Source: Peptococcaceae bacterium BICA1-7 (GTDB taxonomy: Bacteria; Bacillota; Desulfotomaculia; Desulfotomaculales; Desulfocucumaceae). From it: 64,000 nt of DNA. The stretch covers positions 62,001 through 126,000 of the forward strand of contig JUEB01000009.1 in NCBI GenBank assembly GCA_000802095.1, given 5' to 3'. Below, piece by piece: positions 14,164 to 36,465 of this stretch (the first letter of the stretch is position 1; each line of letters begins with the position of its first letter). The notes beneath the pieces were generated by a model. That model saw only the letters and a list, made by a program, of their open reading frames with translations, did no database searches and had not been told where the DNA came from. The translations under genes were made by a program, and so were the position numbers.

Positions 14164-14405
14164 TGTTTTCTGCAACCAAATTAGCACTCTGCTGCAAAAT
14201 ACATGTTTTCTGTTTTCTGCAACGTGCAGAAAACGTGATTTATGTTTTTTGCAACCATGGTATCTGTGAGCTTTTGAGGTGTATTGCAAAAAACGCTTTT
14301 CATGTTTTATGCAACCAAATGTTTCTTAGTGTAGAATTGCAGATTTACGTTTTCTGCAATCAGTTACTACTTTGCAAGATTGCATGAATTACGTTTTTTG
14401 CAACC
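14164..14405. repeat. iteron-like array, consensus YGTTTTHTGCAACC; putative phage replication origin
   Basis: Six direct copies of a 14-base motif start at 14164, 14211, 14243, 14303, 14348 and 14392: TGTTTTCTGCAACC, TGTTTTCTGCAACG, TGTTTTTTGCAACC, TGTTTTATGCAACC, CGTTTTCTGCAATC, CGTTTTTTGCAACC. Two inverted copies lie at 14225-14235 and 14284-14295. The copy at 14211 and its inverted partner form a perfect 10-bp inverted repeat around ACG. This is the only 400-base gene-free stretch in the replication region. It lies between the primase-helicase stop and RusA, fitting an origin or a multi-site operator. Confidence 0.8.
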
Positions 14406-14419
14406 ATCCGAAAACTTTA

Positions 14420-16630
14420 TCACTCCTGTTTTCTGGTAACCACATTCTGATTTATTTCAAAACCACCGTGTTCTTTTATCCTTGCTCTTACAGTTCTCTC
14501 GGCTATTCCCATTGATTCTGCCAGCGTTTGAACCGTGGGAGGCTCCCCGAAATTGCAGCTATTTATTGCATTTTCTAGTGATGCTTTTCTATCTTTTTGC
14601 TTTACTGCTTTAGGCTTCCGTTTATCCATAGCCCTTTTCCACGGCGGCTTCTCCCCCTCGGCCTCCACATCCTTAAGCACCCCAATGTTATCCACATAAT
14701 GCACAGGGTAATCGAACCACAAATTAGCCGGCTTAAACTTCGGAAACTCCCTTAAGGTGCCGTCAATTCTCCACGCTGTGCGCTGCTGTACGGCCTGCCT
14801 GGCGGCGTAAACCTCCGGCAGCATGTCCTGGTATAGTGTTAGCCCTAAAAGGCGCTCACAGGCCGGCAAGAACTGTTTCTCGCTGCACTGGTCGTCCTGG
14901 GATACCTCTTCGCTCCAGTTCTTTTTATGCTTGTTCAGCCATGCCTCACACACCGCACAAACAGCCTTGTTTTCCTCCTGTTTCAGCAGGTCATCAGTGA
15001 GGTCAAGTTCTATGTAGTCCAGTAGCGCATCGGGATCCCGGGCAAACACACCTGAACCGCTGGCTCGGTCCATGCTGCGCTTACTACCCTGGCTGCCTTT
15101 GCTGTGGTGGTGGCAATAAATTACGGCCGCCCCCAACTCCGTGCACACCCGGTCAAATTGATTACAGAAGTGGGCCATTTGGTCTGCACTGTTTTCATCA
15201 CCGGTAATAATTTTATAGATGGGATCAATCACGATGGCAATGTAGTTTTTCTTCTGGGCCCTCCGGATCAACTTCGGCGCCAGCTTGTCCATGGGCACCG
15301 ACTTTCCCCGCAGGTTCCAGATATCAATATTCCTCACATTGTTAGGCTGCCAGCCTAATGCCGTATAAACGTCTTTAAACCGGTGCAGGCAGCTGGCCCG
15401 GTCAAGCTCCAGGTTTACATACATCACCTTGCCCTGGGCGCACTGCCATCCCAGCCACTTCCTGCCCTCTGCAATGGCAACACATAACTCAGTAAGTGCA
15501 AATGATTTTCCGGCCTTGCTGGGGCCGGCCAGGAGCATCTTGTGGCCCTGTCGGAGTACATTATTAATTAATGGCGGCGCCAGTTCAGGCAGGTTGTCCC
15601 ATGCCTCTGCCATGCTTTCCGGCTCCGGAAGGTCATCGTTAATACCCTCAATCCACTCCTGCCACTCTGTCCATGATTCTTTGCCAATGTTGGTATCGAC
15701 CAAAAATTGTTTATGGCCGTTACGCATCACCCCAGGCATACGGGAGAGCCTGGACGGGTTCCGGTTCTGGGTATCTACCTTAAGTCCATTTCGTTTACAA
15801 ACGTCATAAAGGTAGTTAACTCGCTTGCGATATTCCTCATAATTACCAGCATCTACCTTGACAATAGCGTGTATTGATTTTTTCCCGCTATGAACTAGGC
15901 AAGCTATTGGCAATTCAAGTTCTCGCATGATAGCGTGCTGTCGTTCAAGGTCCATATCATCTGATTCAACCAAAGAATACCTGAAATCAGTTACATTATC
16001 ATTTTTACATCCAGTGCCATCCAAGGGATTAAATCTTATCCATGCTCCTACTTCCGGCTTATAGTCACCAAGTACACTGCCAATATCACCATTACAACTG
16101 CTAAGTTGTTGGATTAATTGACCAGCGGTACGGTCCCAGCACCCCTTTGTGGGTAAGTGCTTACCTTCCTTTTCCCAGCTATCGCAAACATAGCCCACAT
16201 TGTCATTGGCCTCAAACAGTATTTCAAGGTATTTAATTAGGTGTTCAACCGGGTTCCATTCACTGGGTTCTGTGACCTCACGCCCCTCGACCCAGTTTTT
16301 ATCTACCACAACCAGGTCGCCCTTGTTGCCGATAACGGAATCCCATTCAAGCTCATAGCCTGGCCCCGTGTCCTTTGGTTCCGGCGTCCATCCCTGGTCC
16401 CTGGCAAGCTGGACCAGTGTGCCGGCCGTCACCGGGTTAGGGGAGCCGTGAAAACTCCCCCACTTCCGGAAACACTCCCCTGCATGGTACCGGCCCGGGT
16501 CACGCTTAGACCAATTATCCCAGTCGGCAGCGGTAAAACCGGCATCCTTTAAGGCCATGCCAACATTTACCCAGTCCTGGTAATCCAGGACAGCGGGGTC
16601 TATATGTTCAAGTAGCTCAAGTTCGGTCAT
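14420..16630 (-). CDS. replication primase-helicase: PriCT-2 + primase-like + RepA-type (AAA_25) ATPase + C-terminal HTH
   Basis: A 736-residue multidomain protein. Residues 5-85 form a PriCT-2 domain (IDPAVLDYQDWVNVGMALKD, then DWDNWSKRDPGRYHAGECFRKW). Residues 150-330 resemble a primase-pol core (WIRFNPLDGTGCKNDNVTDF, SGKKSIHAIVKVDA, NPSRLSRMPGV). Residues 350-560 are a RepA/AAA_25 helicase with Walker A LLAGPSKAGKSFAL and Walker B-like IVIDPIYKI, plus CHHHSKGSQG. Residues about 675-730 carry a helix-turn-helix (TVQTLAESMGIAERTVRARI). It should prime and unwind phage DNA. The HTH could bind the array found right after its gene. Confidence 0.88.
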   Translation of the reverse strand: MTELELLEHIDPAVLDYQDWVNVGMALKDAGFTAADWDNWSKRDPGRYHAGECFRKWGSFHGSPNPVTAGTLVQLARDQGWTPEPKDTGPGYELEWDSVIGNKGDLVVVDKNWVEGREVTEPSEWNPVEHLIKYLEILFEANDNVGYVCDSWEKEGKHLPTKGCWDRTAGQLIQQLSSCNGDIGSVLGDYKPEVGAWIRFNPLDGTGCKNDNVTDFRYSLVESDDMDLERQHAIMRELELPIACLVHSGKKSIHAIVKVDAGNYEEYRKRVNYLYDVCKRNGLKVDTQNRNPSRLSRMPGVMRNGHKQFLVDTNIGKESWTEWQEWIEGINDDLPEPESMAEAWDNLPELAPPLINNVLRQGHKMLLAGPSKAGKSFALTELCVAIAEGRKWLGWQCAQGKVMYVNLELDRASCLHRFKDVYTALGWQPNNVRNIDIWNLRGKSVPMDKLAPKLIRRAQKKNYIAIVIDPIYKIITGDENSADQMAHFCNQFDRVCTELGAAVIYCHHHSKGSQGSKRSMDRASGSGVFARDPDALLDYIELDLTDDLLKQEENKAVCAVCEAWLNKHKKNWSEEVSQDDQCSEKQFLPACERLLGLTLYQDMLPEVYAARQAVQQRTAWRIDGTLREFPKFKPANLWFDYPVHYVDNIGVLKDVEAEGEKPPWKRAMDKRKPKAVKQKDRKASLENAINSCNFGEPPTVQTLAESMGIAERTVRARIKEHGGFEINQNVVTRKQE

Positions 16631-18122: not shown

Positions 18123-19400
18123 CTAAGCTACTTCCGGGTCGAACTTCTGACCTTCATCCGTCCAGGTATCATCATCCCAAACCATTTGGTCTACCCGGTC
18201 AAAGATGCAGGGTTTGAACTCCAGTAAGTCCTTGGCGTCGAACATATCGAACATCGAAAGTTGGCCCTTGCGTTTGGCTATCTGAATATTGCGGATCTCC
18301 TCAGCCATGCCCCGCCTCATGTAATACATCCACTGTTTTGGATGAGTTCGCCGTAGCATTGCCATGTGGTTATTGGGGTAAAGCAGGTCGGTACCGCAGC
18401 CCATACATCCGTTGCGCTTAATCTTGTGGTATGTTCCGCTCCCATCAGTCCATCCCATGTCATACAAGGGTGAATAGGGAACATTGAAGCGTTTTATGTA
18501 GGCCCAAATGTCATCATCCGTCCAAATGGATAACGGGTTACAGTGCCAGAATGGATCTTTCCCAAGATGGTCACGATGGGATTTAAAGAGGTACCCACGG
18601 GTAACGAAGTTTGTTTGCCGCTGTCTGCTTTCGGCTGCCATAAGTCCCTTGAAAATCACATCGACATCCAGCTCGACCTGCAGGCGCTCACTTGGTTCTT
18701 TTTTAAGTATGTCGCAGCAGGCCTGACTGAACTTCACCTGCTTTAAAAGCTCGTAATAAGCAAGTAGCTTTTGATTTTCGCTTTGGCTCTCGGAGAACCG
18801 CAAGAAACAGTCAATGTTAATCCGATGAGCTTTAAGTTTTGACGCTGCCTTTCCCATCAGCGGCCAGCCATATTGATCAATACACCACCAGTATGACTTG
18901 CGGGAGCCTGCCGGCCAGGTTAATTTTTCATGTTCAAACTTTTCCTTCAGGTGATCAGGGCATGCCGCTTCCAGTGTGGCAGTACTTTTAAGTTTCCCAT
19001 CTGGCTTTAAAATCTCATGGATACGGCCCGTGTCGATCATATATTGCAGTACTCTCTGTTGTGCCACATATTTCAGTCCATCTACTTCCGTGCGGCCTGG
19101 TGTGGCTTCATAGAAATTGCCATTGCCCCAATCCTGCCTGATTTGCCGCGAGAACTGAACGCACTCTGGATATTCCACTCCGGTATTGCCGTATATTACA
19201 ACCATGCGCTGTGCTTGCTCTGGGAAGTGGGTCCGTATCAGGTGCCAGAGTACGGTACTGTCTTTGCCTGCACTGAAGGCCAGGGCTGAACGATGGCGGC
19301 AAACATCAAAGGCTGACTTAATTGCATCTACAGCGGTGGAGATTTTATAGTCCAAGTCACGGGCCTGCTCTTTCATTAGGTCCTTGAAACTAATAAACAT
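18123..19400 (-). CDS. PAPS reductase-family PP-loop ATPase (DndC-like)
   Basis: A 425-residue protein. The PP-loop is ALAFSAGKDSTVLWHL near residue 42, followed by VVIYGNTGVEYPECVQF, a typical CysH-family core. Later parts have WHCNPLSIWTDDDIWAYIKR and a Cys pair NGCMGCGTDLLYP that could hold a metal or disulphide. The family adenylates a substrate; in phages the role is unclear, perhaps DNA phosphorothioation-like modification or sulphur metabolism (inference). The ATG is only a few bases after the terminator of structured element A, so its expression may depend on that element. Confidence 0.85.
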   Translation of the reverse strand: MFISFKDLMKEQARDLDYKISTAVDAIKSAFDVCRHRSALAFSAGKDSTVLWHLIRTHFPEQAQRMVVIYGNTGVEYPECVQFSRQIRQDWGNGNFYEATPGRTEVDGLKYVAQQRVLQYMIDTGRIHEILKPDGKLKSTATLEAACPDHLKEKFEHEKLTWPAGSRKSYWWCIDQYGWPLMGKAASKLKAHRINIDCFLRFSESQSENQKLLAYYELLKQVKFSQACCDILKKEPSERLQVELDVDVIFKGLMAAESRQRQTNFVTRGYLFKSHRDHLGKDPFWHCNPLSIWTDDDIWAYIKRFNVPYSPLYDMGWTDGSGTYHKIKRNGCMGCGTDLLYPNNHMAMLRRTHPKQWMYYMRRGMAEEIRNIQIAKRKGQLSMFDMFDAKDLLEFKPCIFDRVDQMVWDDDTWTDEGQKFDPEVA

Positions 19401-19417
19401 CTACTTAACCCCCAAAC

Positions 19418-19523
19418 AAAAACCGGCCACACCATTAATTTGGCGGGCCGGTACTCACCCCGGTAGGTGACGGAGGTCTTTGCCTCCTGTTCTTATTCTC
19501 TTGGCCTCAGAGGAAATTGGTTT
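19418..19523 (-). ncRNA. structured RNA element A: two hairpins, possible pseudoknot, competing terminator
   Basis: Minus-strand order: hairpin 1 GGAGG-C-AAA-GA-CCTCC (19487-19472); hairpin 2 TCACC-TACCGG-GGTGA (19470-19455); then GTACCGGCC, which is the 5' arm of a terminator (ACCGGCC...GGCCGGT-TTTTG, 19452-19418). The hairpin-2 loop CCGG can pair with the CCGG of the terminator arm, so pseudoknot and terminator exclude each other. It starts right after the DUF1643 stop codon and ends before the PAPS-reductase-like gene. Copy B shares the same layout. Function unknown; an attenuator or riboswitch is possible. Confidence 0.65.
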
Positions 19524-20054
19524 TTAGGTGGCACCGGGAATCCCCCTCGGTATCTGGTCCCATGTTCTCCTGTATAATTCCGGCTTGGTATCCCCTCTCA
19601 CATACAGGGGATGCCGAGGGTGGCCATCTTTGGTTAGCTCCAGGCACATAATTTCAGTAGCCCCACTATCTATAAGTAGCCTTATAACCTGCTTATCCCT
19701 GCCCTGGTGTTTCCCGTGAGTCCCCCAGGCTGCAATAATGTAATTGGACCTACGGACAGCAGCCAAAATATATCTGTCATTCTCGGGTCCTACCGGGTCA
19801 GGCGCCCGCTTTAATTCCTGCGGGAAGGTTGTCCGGTACCCAAAAAGGTTAACAACTTCCAAGGAGCCATATCCCCACGCCCGGGCAAACCCTATGCAGC
19901 GCCGCAGGGTCGGATCGTCCTTCTCGGCATCCGCCGTGCTGCCGTTTAGCATTACAAAAAGTACTCGGGGCTTTTCCGAATCCCATTCACGAACCAGAGA
20001 GTATCTGTATTGGCAGGTTTCGTCTATGACTGCCGAGGAAACAATACTACTCAT
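19524..20054 (-). CDS. DUF1643-family protein
   Basis: 176 residues. DUF1643 landmarks are visible: CQYRYSLVREWDSEKPRVLF, VMLNGSTADAEKDDPTLRRC, FARAWGYGSLEVVNLFGYRT, and a later AAWGTHGKHQGRDKQV. The family is found in phages and defence or modification islands; no activity is established. It overlaps the dCMP deaminase gene by 4 bases. Its last codons (GGT GCC ACC TAA) are shared with the end of the small gene at 32,026, because structured element copies begin there. Confidence 0.88.
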   Translation of the reverse strand: MSSIVSSAVIDETCQYRYSLVREWDSEKPRVLFVMLNGSTADAEKDDPTLRRCIGFARAWGYGSLEVVNLFGYRTTFPQELKRAPDPVGPENDRYILAAVRRSNYIIAAWGTHGKHQGRDKQVIRLLIDSGATEIMCLELTKDGHPRHPLYVRGDTKPELYRRTWDQIPRGIPGAT

Positions 20055-31896: not shown

Positions 31897-31906
31897 TTAA
31901 GGGTGT

Positions 31907-32025
31907 AAAAAAGGACACCCCCTGATTTACTCAGGAAGTGCCCTACTCACCGGGTCACGGGTGACGGAGGTCAAAGCCTCCCATTCGATATTCACTTTTC
32001 CCTCGGACGCTTGGGGAACTGCGGC
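31907..32025 (-). ncRNA. structured RNA element B: second copy of the hairpin-pseudoknot-terminator element
   Basis: Minus-strand order: hairpin 1 GGAGG-C-TTT-GA-CCTCC (31981-31966); hairpin 2 TCACC-CGTGACCC-GGTGA (31964-31947); then AGTAGGGCAC, the 5' arm of a terminator (GGGCAC...GTGTCC-TTTTTT with inner CCTGA/TCAGG, 31943-31907). Loop GTG-A-CCC can pair with arm GGG-CAC with one bulge, again excluding the terminator. It starts at the stop codon of the zinc-ribbon gene at 32,026. Sequences that differ from copy A keep the pairing in both hairpins and the pseudoknot. Confidence 0.65.
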
Positions 32026-32145
32026 TTAGGTGGCACCGGAATCACCACCGTCCGGTATTTCGGTCCCACAGTAAGGGCAGATCCAGGGGATAGCTCCGGC
32101 GCTGTATGAAGTCTTACTGCAATTCGGGCAGACTCTGCTTTGCAT
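32026..32145 (-). CDS. 39-residue double-CxxC zinc-ribbon protein
   Basis: Minus-strand ATG at 32145, with AAAGGAG 8 bases upstream; stop TAA at 32026-32028. Sequence begins MQSRVCPNCSKTSYSAGAIP and continues WICPYCGTEIPDGGDSGAT. CPNC and CPYC pairs make a zinc ribbon. Its last codons GGT GCC ACC TAA match the end of the DUF1643 gene because structured element B begins there. A different, longer frame over the same bases is not the gene. Confidence 0.78.
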   Translation of the reverse strand: MQSRVCPNCSKTSYSAGAIPWICPYCGTEIPDGGDSGAT

Positions 32146-34182: not shown

Positions 34183-34413
34183 TTAACTAGCCTGTATTTC
34201 CGTCACGCTGTGTAAAAAATTAAGGTCCATTGTCAGACACGCAGCAATGCTTGTCAGCGCTTCTACGCTTGGAGCATACCTGCCGTTTTCTATGTCCGAA
34301 ATATAGTTTCTGGAAAGTCCGGTTTTCTCCGATACTTCCAGCTGAGTTAGACCTTTTTCCAGACGACTCTCTTTTATTTTTTTGCCTATTTTTTCTCTTG
34401 CCGCGGCATCCAT
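34183..34413 (-). CDS. Cro-like XRE-family HTH regulator
   Basis: Start chosen at ATG 34413 after GGGGGTG, 76 residues. REKIGKKIKESRLEKGLTQL, SEKTGLSRNYISDIENGRYA form the full XRE helix-turn-helix. It is transcribed away from the repressor, at the head of the lytic operon, in the position of Cro. Its own promoter (-35 TTTACA, 17-base spacer, -10 TACTAT at 34,434-34,462) contains an operator copy. Confidence 0.85.
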   Translation of the reverse strand: MDAAAREKIGKKIKESRLEKGLTQLEVSEKTGLSRNYISDIENGRYAPSVEALTSIAACLTMDLNFLHSVTEIQAS

Positions 34414-34433
34414 TGTTTTCACCCCCTGGAAAT

Positions 34434-34667: not shown

Positions 34668-35234
34668 GTGCATTTAGGTGATCGCATAAAAAAGGTAAGG
34701 GAAGGCCTAAATTTTACGCAGAAGGAATTGGCTTTAAAGGCTAACATATCTCGCTCATACTTAGCAGATATAGAGAATAACAGGTATAACCCCAGTTTGG
34801 ACACGCTTACTAAAATTGCAGGAGCGCTCGATGTTTCACCTGATCGCTTAACCGGTGAAACAGCCCGTAGTCTAATAGAGGACAGGCTCGAAGAACTGAG
34901 CATGCCTCTATCCGAATTAGCTCATAAAGCAGAAGTTCCGTTGGCTTTTCTTACTAATCTTGATAGTGTCATACCGGACGAGGGTGATTACGATTATGTA
35001 ACTAAAATCGCTAAAGCCCTTGGAGTTCAACCTGGTAGCCTACGCGCAGCCCTTGCGCGTCAGGAACCCCCGATCTATGATGGCCCCAAATCCAACCCTG
35101 AGGAAGACTTTGCGATGGTCTCAGAGGCTTCTATGGATTATGCCTGTGGCGACGATTGGACGGAAGCTGAACTGAAAGAGATAGAAAGATTCAAAGATTT
35201 CCTGCGCATGAAGCGAAGCCAGAAAAAAGATTAG
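34668..35234 (+). CDS. prophage repressor, XRE family with two HTH domains
   Basis: 188 residues from GTG at 34668 after GAGAGGG. Residues 5-60 are a complete XRE HTH (LNFTQKELALKANISRSYLA, DIENNRYNPSLDTLTKI). A second, more degenerate HTH lies at about 70-125 (ELSMPLSELAHKAEVPLAFL). The C-terminus ends in a charged helix (EIERFKDFLRMKRSQKKD). It lacks a LexA-like peptidase domain, so induction is likely not by self-cleavage. It is divergent from the Cro-like gene. Confidence 0.88.
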   Translation: MHLGDRIKKVREGLNFTQKELALKANISRSYLADIENNRYNPSLDTLTKIAGALDVSPDRLTGETARSLIEDRLEELSMPLSELAHKAEVPLAFLTNLDSVIPDEGDYDYVTKIAKALGVQPGSLRAALARQEPPIYDGPKSNPEEDFAMVSEASMDYACGDDWTEAELKEIERFKDFLRMKRSQKKD

Positions 35235-35244
35235 AGGTGAAAAC

Positions 35245-36465
35245 TTGGCATCTATCGAACAGAAAGACGATGCTGGCCTAAAGTGGCTATTGGTAGTCTC
35301 TGATGGATTCAATGGTAAAAAGAGGGTTAAAAGGAAAAAGATTTTTAGTGGAACTGAGAAACAGGCATTAAAAGCGGCAGTCCTTTTTGAAGATGAAGTG
35401 AAGAACGGTAAATACTGCCCAGCCAGTAAGGACTGCAAACTTTCTGAATTTGTGGATATGTGGATCAAGGATTATGGAGAAAAGAATCTGGCGCCTAAAA
35501 CCTTGGCCCGGTACAAGGAAATGCTGGACAGCAGGATTCTGCCCACTATCGGTCAACTGAAATTGGACAAGCTTAAGCCGATGGTTATTAACCGCCTCAT
35601 AAATGACCTGGCTGACATGCCACGCAAAGATAAAAAGGAAGGTAAGCTTTCAGCCCAAACCATCAGGCATCATTACCGTTGCCTCTCTGCTATACTCCAG
35701 GATGCCGTAGACTGGGACGTAATTAAGGAAAACCCCTGTTCGCGCGTCACGCCTCCCAAGGTTAAAAAGGCCAAAGTAAAGGTCTATGATGAAGAGGAAA
35801 CCAGTGCCTTTTTAACCGCCCTGGAGACGGCACCCCTGAAACACCGGACGCTTATATGGCTTGAGATAGCCACAGGCCTTCGTGAAGGGGAAATTATGGG
35901 CTTGGAGTGGATTGACATAGATTTTAATAATAATAGCCTTAAGGTTGAGAGAGCCAGCCAATATTTACCGGGGAAAGGTGTATTTACAAAAGACCCTAAA
36001 ACGGAAGAGAGCCAGCGCACCTTGGCGCTGCCTAAAAATGTGATGGACTTGCTCAAGCAGCACAAAGCAAAGCTGGCTGAAAAAAAACTTAAGCTGGGCG
36101 ATTTTAAAAACGGGGGGTTGTGGAAAGGATCGGATCGGCTTTTCGTGACCTGGGACGGACGTCCTGGGCACCCCACCTGGCCGGGGAAGTGGCTGGCAAA
36201 ATTTCTGAAAGACAAAGAACTGCCGCACTGCTCTTTTCATTCCCTGCGACACCTCAATGCTACTATGTCTATTGCGGCCGGCGTCCCGCTTAAAAACGTA
36301 TCGGCTCGGCTGGGACATAGCGATATAGGGACCACTGCAAACATCTATGCCGAAGCCCTGAAAAGCGTGGACCGGGAGGCCGCTGAAAAAATGGGTAAGC
36401 TACTTGAGAATAAGCCGGAAGAAAAGGACGGCAGAGCCAAGAAAGTGAAACGCATACGCCGATGA
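35245..36465 (+). CDS. tyrosine-family site-specific integrase
   Basis: 406 residues from TTG at 35245 after AGAGGTG. The N-terminal arm-binding domain (EQKDDAGLKWLLVV...) and SAM-like core domain (SEFVDMWIKDYGEKNLAPKT) precede the catalytic domain. Catalytic residues are visible: Arg in IATGLREGEIMGLEW, His-x-x-Arg in SFHSLRHLNATMSI, His in RLGHSDIGTTANIYAEAL with the Tyr nucleophile. It integrates the phage at the tRNA-Trp. The attachment fragment follows its stop codon by 130 bases. Confidence 0.95.
   Translation: MASIEQKDDAGLKWLLVVSDGFNGKKRVKRKKIFSGTEKQALKAAVLFEDEVKNGKYCPASKDCKLSEFVDMWIKDYGEKNLAPKTLARYKEMLDSRILPTIGQLKLDKLKPMVINRLINDLADMPRKDKKEGKLSAQTIRHHYRCLSAILQDAVDWDVIKENPCSRVTPPKVKKAKVKVYDEEETSAFLTALETAPLKHRTLIWLEIATGLREGEIMGLEWIDIDFNNNSLKVERASQYLPGKGVFTKDPKTEESQRTLALPKNVMDLLKQHKAKLAEKKLKLGDFKNGGLWKGSDRLFVTWDGRPGHPTWPGKWLAKFLKDKELPHCSFHSLRHLNATMSIAAGVPLKNVSARLGHSDIGTTANIYAEALKSVDREAAEKMGKLLENKPEEKDGRAKKVKRIRR

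Follow-up and report, generated by a model that had tools for sequence, protein, structure and literature searches.

A candidate pseudoknot-gated transcription attenuator behind a conserved mini-ORF in the early operons of temperate phages from Desulfotomaculales-type hosts

In the classical cases, what opens the early operon of a phage is either a protein, such as lambda N, or an RNA travelling with the polymerase, such as HK022 put, whose stem-loops are separated by one nucleotide. Control at a terminator is also common among the riboswitches of Firmicutes. HK022 carries two putRNAs of two stem-loops each, downstream of the early promoters; the putRNA is about 70 nt long, with long stems and a triplex in stem I, and a pseudoknot is not mentioned (PMC9378689). 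Here we analyse a window (the whole 64,000-nucleotide stretch, lying within one of the 33 contigs of a 4.7-Mb genome) in which two adjacent hairpins are followed by an intrinsic terminator. We read this element, with a probability of roughly 0.6, as a cis-acting transcription attenuator of temperate phages that would use a pseudoknot as its antiterminator.

The left part of the window is a temperate phage, which is also found in IMG/VR. Its early operon of about 21 kb runs leftward from a Cro-like HTH protein to a primase/helicase and carries two copies of the element on its coding strand, copy B 2.4 kb and copy A 15 kb into the operon. When the coding strand from 13.5 to 34.5 kb was scanned for stable hairpins with a U-tract behind them, just two strong sense-strand terminators came up, those of A (-21.1 kcal/mol) and B (-22.7 kcal/mol), the next best candidate reaching -13.7 kcal/mol. 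Similarly, in the prophages that carry copies C and L176 (see below), the terminator of the element is the sole strong one on the coding strand from the repressor region to the genes after the replication initiator. At 14193-14407, inverted and direct repeats cluster around TGCAGAAAAC/GTTTTTTGCA, possibly as the phage's replication origin or as a site for a regulator.

Copy A occupies positions 19487-19422 and copy B positions 31981-31912, both on the minus strand (Table 1). The two hairpins, 1 nt apart in A, together span about 33 nt and have stems of 5-6 bp; the computed fold of hairpin 1 of A has a six-nucleotide loop, which can equally be read as a C-G-closed triloop with a bulged A. The CCGG in the hairpin 2 loop of A can pair with the CCGG at the foot of the terminator, giving a compact H-type pseudoknot in which the stem of hairpin 2 is S1 and the loop-arm helix is S2. 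The whole A stretch folds better than its dinucleotide shuffles (z -2.8, 4/200), as against an unremarkable z of -0.8 for hairpins 1 and 2 alone. Since the two hairpins alone do not stand out, the single copy is not convincing, and it is the homologues that lift the element above chance.

Table 1. Positions, in the window, of the parts of copies A and B and of genes of the surrounding phage
Feature	Position	Strand	Details
Hairpin 1, copy A	19472..19487	-	GGAGGC-AAA-G(A)CCTCC, bulged A on 3' side
Single G between hairpins 1 and 2, copy A	19471	-	
Hairpin 2, copy A (pseudoknot stem S1, TCACC/GGTGA)	19455..19470	-	TCACC-TACCGG-GGTGA
S2 5' strand, copy A	19463-19460	-	CCGG at end of hairpin 2 loop TACCGG
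GTA joining segment, copy A	19454-19452	-	
S2 3' strand, copy A	19448..19451	-	CCGG, polymerase-proximal foot of terminator 5' arm
Intrinsic terminator, copy A	19414..19452 (incl. U-tract)	-	ACCGGCC...GGCCGGT at 19452-19422, -21.1 kcal/mol, then TTTTTGTT
Leader mini-ORF, copy A	19493..19534	-	GTG CCA CCT AAA AAC CAA TTT CCT CTG AGG CCA AGA GAA TAA (MPPKNQFPLRPRE, stop)
PAPS-reductase-domain gene downstream of A	18123..19400	-	Pfam PF01507 E 5.5e-24, PHROG 424
Hairpin 1, copy B	31966..31981	-	GGAGGC-TTT-G(A)CCTCC
Hairpin 2, copy B	31947..31964	-	TCACC-CGTGACCC-GGTGA; GTGACCC is the S2 5' strand
S2 3' strand, copy B	31938..31943	-	GGGCAC, terminator foot; 6 pairs with GTGACCC, one bulged A
Intrinsic terminator, copy B	31906..31944 (incl. 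U-tract)	-	-22.7 kcal/mol
Leader mini-ORF, copy B	31992..32036	-	MPPKPQFPKRPREK, stop; overlaps end of upstream gene
Integrase-like protein	35245-36465	+	Phage gene
Repressor-like HTH protein	34668-35234	+	Phage gene
Cro-like HTH protein	34183-34422	-	Start of leftward early operon
Primase/helicase	14420-16630	-	End of leftward early operon

In total the element was found seven times. The phage of the window carries A and B, another prophage-like region of this genome carries C, and the other four copies (L152, L153, L154 and L176) belong to genomes from the same order. A search of 200 related genomes by blastn with A alone found C, L152, L153 and L154 (E about 1e-9 to 1e-11), and L176 came up at E 2e-6 with a covariance model trained on these copies together with B. 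The core of the element is identical among copies that can no longer be aligned inside their terminators. Further scans gave no convincing copy, and the family therefore looks narrow, belonging to phages and prophages of Desulfotomaculales-type hosts. Scans of viral contigs returned, among the matches listed, only the phage of the window; a scan of genome contigs gave only already-known genomes and one chance match; and the 398 genomes sampled across the phylum yielded chance matches only, mostly within coding sequence. PLSDB and INPHARED held no convincing further copy, a class-level model search returned the same copies as the order-level one, and a loose S1 pattern run over the order yielded no new copy and many GGTGAGTATG-type matches, which are probably ribosome-binding sites. 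We judged L160, which has the core string without a terminator, to be a chance match, and likewise a 20-nt match (TCACCAACCGGGGTGAGTAC) to the L153 core in L282 (G012:C1:62417-62437), which lies inside a sporulation-sigma-factor-like coding sequence (..FTNRGEYVDDLFQ..). A partial copy in L264 (about 1495-1610; G109:C223:12873) has the same upstream peptide (PPKPQFPKRQKEK); its hairpin 1 is shorter, no pseudoknot accompanies its terminator (GCACC...GGTGC-TTTTTT), and it may be a variant that has decayed or collapsed.

All seven copies share CACC and GGTGAGTA unchanged. In C two compensatory pairs preserve the hairpin 1 helix (AGGG/CCCT); the helix has one mismatch in L152 and in L176 consists of GGA/TCC and GGC/GCC around an internal loop; S1 hardly varies and so offers no covariation. 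The informative helix is S2, the register of which is the same in 7/7 copies: the loop strand lies directly 5' of the 3' strand of S1, and the arm follows directly after GTA, starting 3 nt after hairpin 2. Five of the seven copies have CCGG:CCGG, and, this string being self-complementary, they are equally compatible with a pseudoknot and with a direct repeat. The S2 strands of L176 (CTGG:CCAG) and B (GTG-a-CCC:GGGCAC) are complements and not direct repeats, which amounts to two-sided change at all four S2 pairs. Over the seven copies S2 pairs in 28/28 cells, with B, whose loop is two nucleotides longer, aligned by hand, and 2.4% of permutations do as well (p 0.024); the loop-arm complementarity of individual copies is weak against shuffles (p 0.02-0.28). 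With two independent S2 variants among seven copies we regard the covariation as suggestive, and, on the aligned copies, the loop-arm pairing is conserved through compensatory change in B and L176. The initial annotation had described two hairpins and a terminator before the gene at 19,400, a pseudoknot that would exclude the terminator, and a covariance-model search as a means of finding homologues. All the parts lie where it placed them, the predicted exclusion holds in the homologues with the compensatory changes of B and L176, and the search recovered L176 with the pairing conserved.

In all six copies with a complete terminator (L152 falls outside this count, being cut by the contig end), the polymerase-proximal foot of the terminator stem, beside the U-tract, is formed by the S2 arm, and S2 and the full terminator are thus predicted to be mutually exclusive pairings. 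When the S2 arm is blocked, the computed stability of the terminator falls from -21.1 to -8.1 kcal/mol in A, from -22.7 to -7.9 in B, from -18.7 to -5.8 in C, from -22.4 to -9.5 in L154, from -20.0 to -8.5 in L176 and from -7.2 to -3.0 in L153. The cost is 11.5-14.8 kcal/mol in the first five and 4.2 kcal/mol in L153, and the residual terminator stem is left detached from the U-tract. S2 stacking, calculated as duplex values plus about 4.1 for initiation, comes to approximately 7.5 to 10.5 kcal/mol, an estimate before the cost of closing the pseudoknot, and by this estimate the terminator beats S2 in 5/6 complete copies (about -9 gained, about -13 lost). Since the terminator should be favoured at equilibrium in these five copies, antitermination would need either speed or a stabilising partner, and the outcome would otherwise be mostly termination. 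Speed could serve because the pseudoknot emerges before the terminator.

A feature that the initial annotation had missed is a mini-ORF just upstream of the element. It encodes (M)PPKPQFPKRP(R/K) or close variants in six of the seven copies (A, B, C, L152, L154 and L176, the last having been recovered without its sequence in the model) and in A overlaps the 3' end of a DUF1643 gene. The remaining copy, L153, has a different small ORF, preceded by a strong promoter-like sequence of its own (TTGACG-17-TAGAAT). On the reverse strand of that locus (L153/L204), just 5' of the element, this sequence is followed by a perfect palindrome, ACGTGGTGAAATTCACCACGT, which is probably a repressor operator. 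Comparing eleven codons in seven sequences, the partial L264 included, we counted 85 synonymous versus 72 nonsynonymous codon differences in the mini-ORF frame as against 8:138 and 7:136 in the other frames, these pairwise counts not being independent of each other. Given this large contrast between frames, the mini-ORF looks translated and, to judge from its codons, under selection at the protein level. A and B have its stop codon ahead of hairpin 1, whereas in C, L154 and L176 the frame ends only inside the element or beyond it; in L152 it runs off the contig. The peptide is proline/arginine-rich and by eye only recalls proline-rich ribosome-binding peptides.

We propose that, as the polymerase leaves the core of the element, the nascent RNA would fold hairpin 1 and then the H-type pseudoknot, with S1 formed by TCACC/GGTGA and S2 by the hairpin 2 loop and the four to six bases after GUA. 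With S2 holding the foot of the terminator 5' arm, only the upper part of the terminator could form, off the U-tract, and the polymerase would read through; with S2 absent or displaced, the full terminator would form and transcription would stop before the next early genes. The pseudoknot uses up the terminator foot, and the element therefore probably decides between a stop and readthrough into further early phage genes, among which a replication initiator would be gated in three copies and the PAPS-reductase-like gene at A. Since the conserved mini-ORF sits just upstream, its translation or the nascent peptide may be part of the signal; we infer this input, like the direction of the response, from the arrangement of the parts. 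A more far-reaching version is doubtful, though worth stating: that this is a previously undescribed phage device in which translation of a conserved peptide of about 13 residues (MPPKPQFPKRPR/K..) directs the co-transcriptional folding of an H-type pseudoknot antiterminator, tying early or replication genes to the state of the host ribosomes.

The mini-ORF could also act as the leader of a ribosome-mediated attenuator in which its peptide stalls the ribosome and the ribosome's position alone picks the structure. MPPKPQFPKRP(R/K) is conserved as protein, its starts are accompanied by GGNGTGAT-like ribosome-binding sites, and in four copies, by hand count, about 19-22 nt separate the end of the conserved Arg-Pro-Arg/Lys codons from hairpin 1, a distance that would place a stalled ribosome just 5' of the hairpin. 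We nevertheless hold this explanation to be rather unlikely: A, at 11 nt, and C, at 46 nt, depart from this spacing, the position of the stop codon is inconsistent, and we found no alternative pairing between hairpins 1 and 2 for the ribosome's position to switch.

Still less likely, in our estimation, is an RNA of the HK022 put type, whose adjacent hairpins would bind RNA polymerase and confer long-range resistance to terminators, with the pseudoknot as a secondary matter. The two stem-loops one nucleotide apart, the bulge, the two copies in the phage of the window and the early-operon position all fit such an RNA. Against it, the stems are only 5-6 bp, the terminator follows directly with its foot inside the folded element, there is no Rfam match, hairpin 1 is not the centre of conservation, which lies in hairpin 2 and the loop-arm pairing, and the operon has few other strong terminators to need processive readthrough.

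We consider it similarly improbable that these loci contain only ordinary small genes and the usual terminators, with hairpins and a loop-arm complementarity that are incidental or belong to the coding sequence. The mini-ORF is open into the element in L152, L176 and C (..PSPxGVST..), and L264 has peptide and terminator without the pseudoknot. However, the frame across the core differs among copies (PSPxGVST in three, TSVTxRGEYR in two, a stop before the core in A and B), so that coding does not account for the conservation of the core, and the S2 changes of L176, although nonsynonymous in the frames that were read, are complementary. Two candidate recoding signals were also rejected. The A7 runs that might mark a frameshift stimulator in L152-L154 are absent in A and B, lie rather far upstream and lead to no shifted open frame in L154. 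Stop-codon recoding, considered for the three in-frame TGA codons of B, is not supported by their positions, two of them coming from conserved core bases.

The genes around the element differ from copy to copy. Directly 3' of B lies a gene that is GIY-YIG-nuclease-like by eye, with no Pfam match; replication initiators stand directly 3' of C, L153 and L154, whereas L176 has a small protein in that place, with replication genes after it (naming for these four read from the sequences). The upstream genes vary as well. The phages share few proteins beyond HTH regulators, and we saw no shared phage-encoded RNA-binding protein among their genes (mainly HTH regulators were common to them, with partial contigs for two loci). 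The region of copy C (G000:C15:113001-153000; L255, L256) has a PAPS-reductase-like gene of its own about 3 kb upstream of C. The link to the PAPS-reductase gene drawn by the initial annotation had to be given up: close homologues of the gene occur in other phage contigs without the element, which was found only in contigs of the same phage, and other copies precede replication or other genes. These differing downstream genes and elementless homologues make a metabolite riboswitch for that gene unlikely. Of the attenuator or riboswitch logic proposed at the same time, the attenuator part stands, in keeping with the predicted mutually exclusive pairings, and the sensing of a small molecule is not supported. 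The remark that no known riboswitch consensus is recognisable agrees with Rfam release 15, which has no match in the window at gathering score and, with E relaxed to 10, none that overlaps the element; at five other loci, only an off-element chance match appeared at E up to 1. Any metabolite-sensing riboswitch, although suggested by the compact pseudoknot, the nearly invariant S1 and the GUA joining segment, is very improbable, given that the downstream genes (PAPS-reductase-like, GIY-YIG-like by eye, replication initiators, unknown) share no pathway, that PAPS-reductase homologues of other phages lack the element and its copies sit in phage-like loci, that a mini-ORF stands in front, and that no Rfam family fits.

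If the pseudoknot-based attenuator that we favour acts as proposed, it would be a third way to open phage early operons, beside a protein and a polymerase-riding RNA: a terminator foot held in a pseudoknot would gate the early operon, often immediately ahead of the replication genes, in a small and self-contained element with, possibly, a built-in reporter of translation.

How does the element compare with known systems? Like HK022 putL and putR, it has adjacent stem-loops, is cis-acting in our reading, occurs in two copies per phage and lies in an early operon with terminators downstream; in contrast to put, its stems are much shorter, an H-type pseudoknot would take the foot of the adjacent terminator, a mini-ORF stands in front, it has no Rfam match and its host is a Firmicute. 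As at lambda nutR-tR1, a strong terminator separates cro-like from replication genes in the early operon, but on the contigs compared the phages have no N-like protein in common, only HTH regulators being shared by most of them, and by eye we recognise no boxA/boxB arrangement. With the preQ1-I and fluoride pseudoknot riboswitches it shares the competition of pseudoknot and terminator for the same bases, and it differs from them in lacking an Rfam match and a common metabolic gene and in having a mini-ORF upstream. The string GGGUG-agu-ACCG just before the terminator recalls the T-box sequence AGGGUGGNACCGCG; however, the element has no stem I, specifier or UGGN bulge, reads UGAGU, has no Rfam T-box match, and its S2 arm is itself an arm of the terminator. 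Leader-peptide attenuators, of the trp and the antibiotic-inducible type, likewise have a small conserved ORF before hairpins and a terminator, whereas here there are neither runs of codons for a single amino acid nor a fixed stop, and the antiterminator would be a pseudoknot. Among the traits by which such systems are recognised, the element has a terminator competing with an upstream structure in 6/6 copies, compensatory change in B and L176, and a conserved leader ORF in 6/7. By analogy, and claiming membership of none of these classes, we suggest that in its mechanism it resembles a pseudoknot riboswitch platform and in its position put or nutR-tR1.
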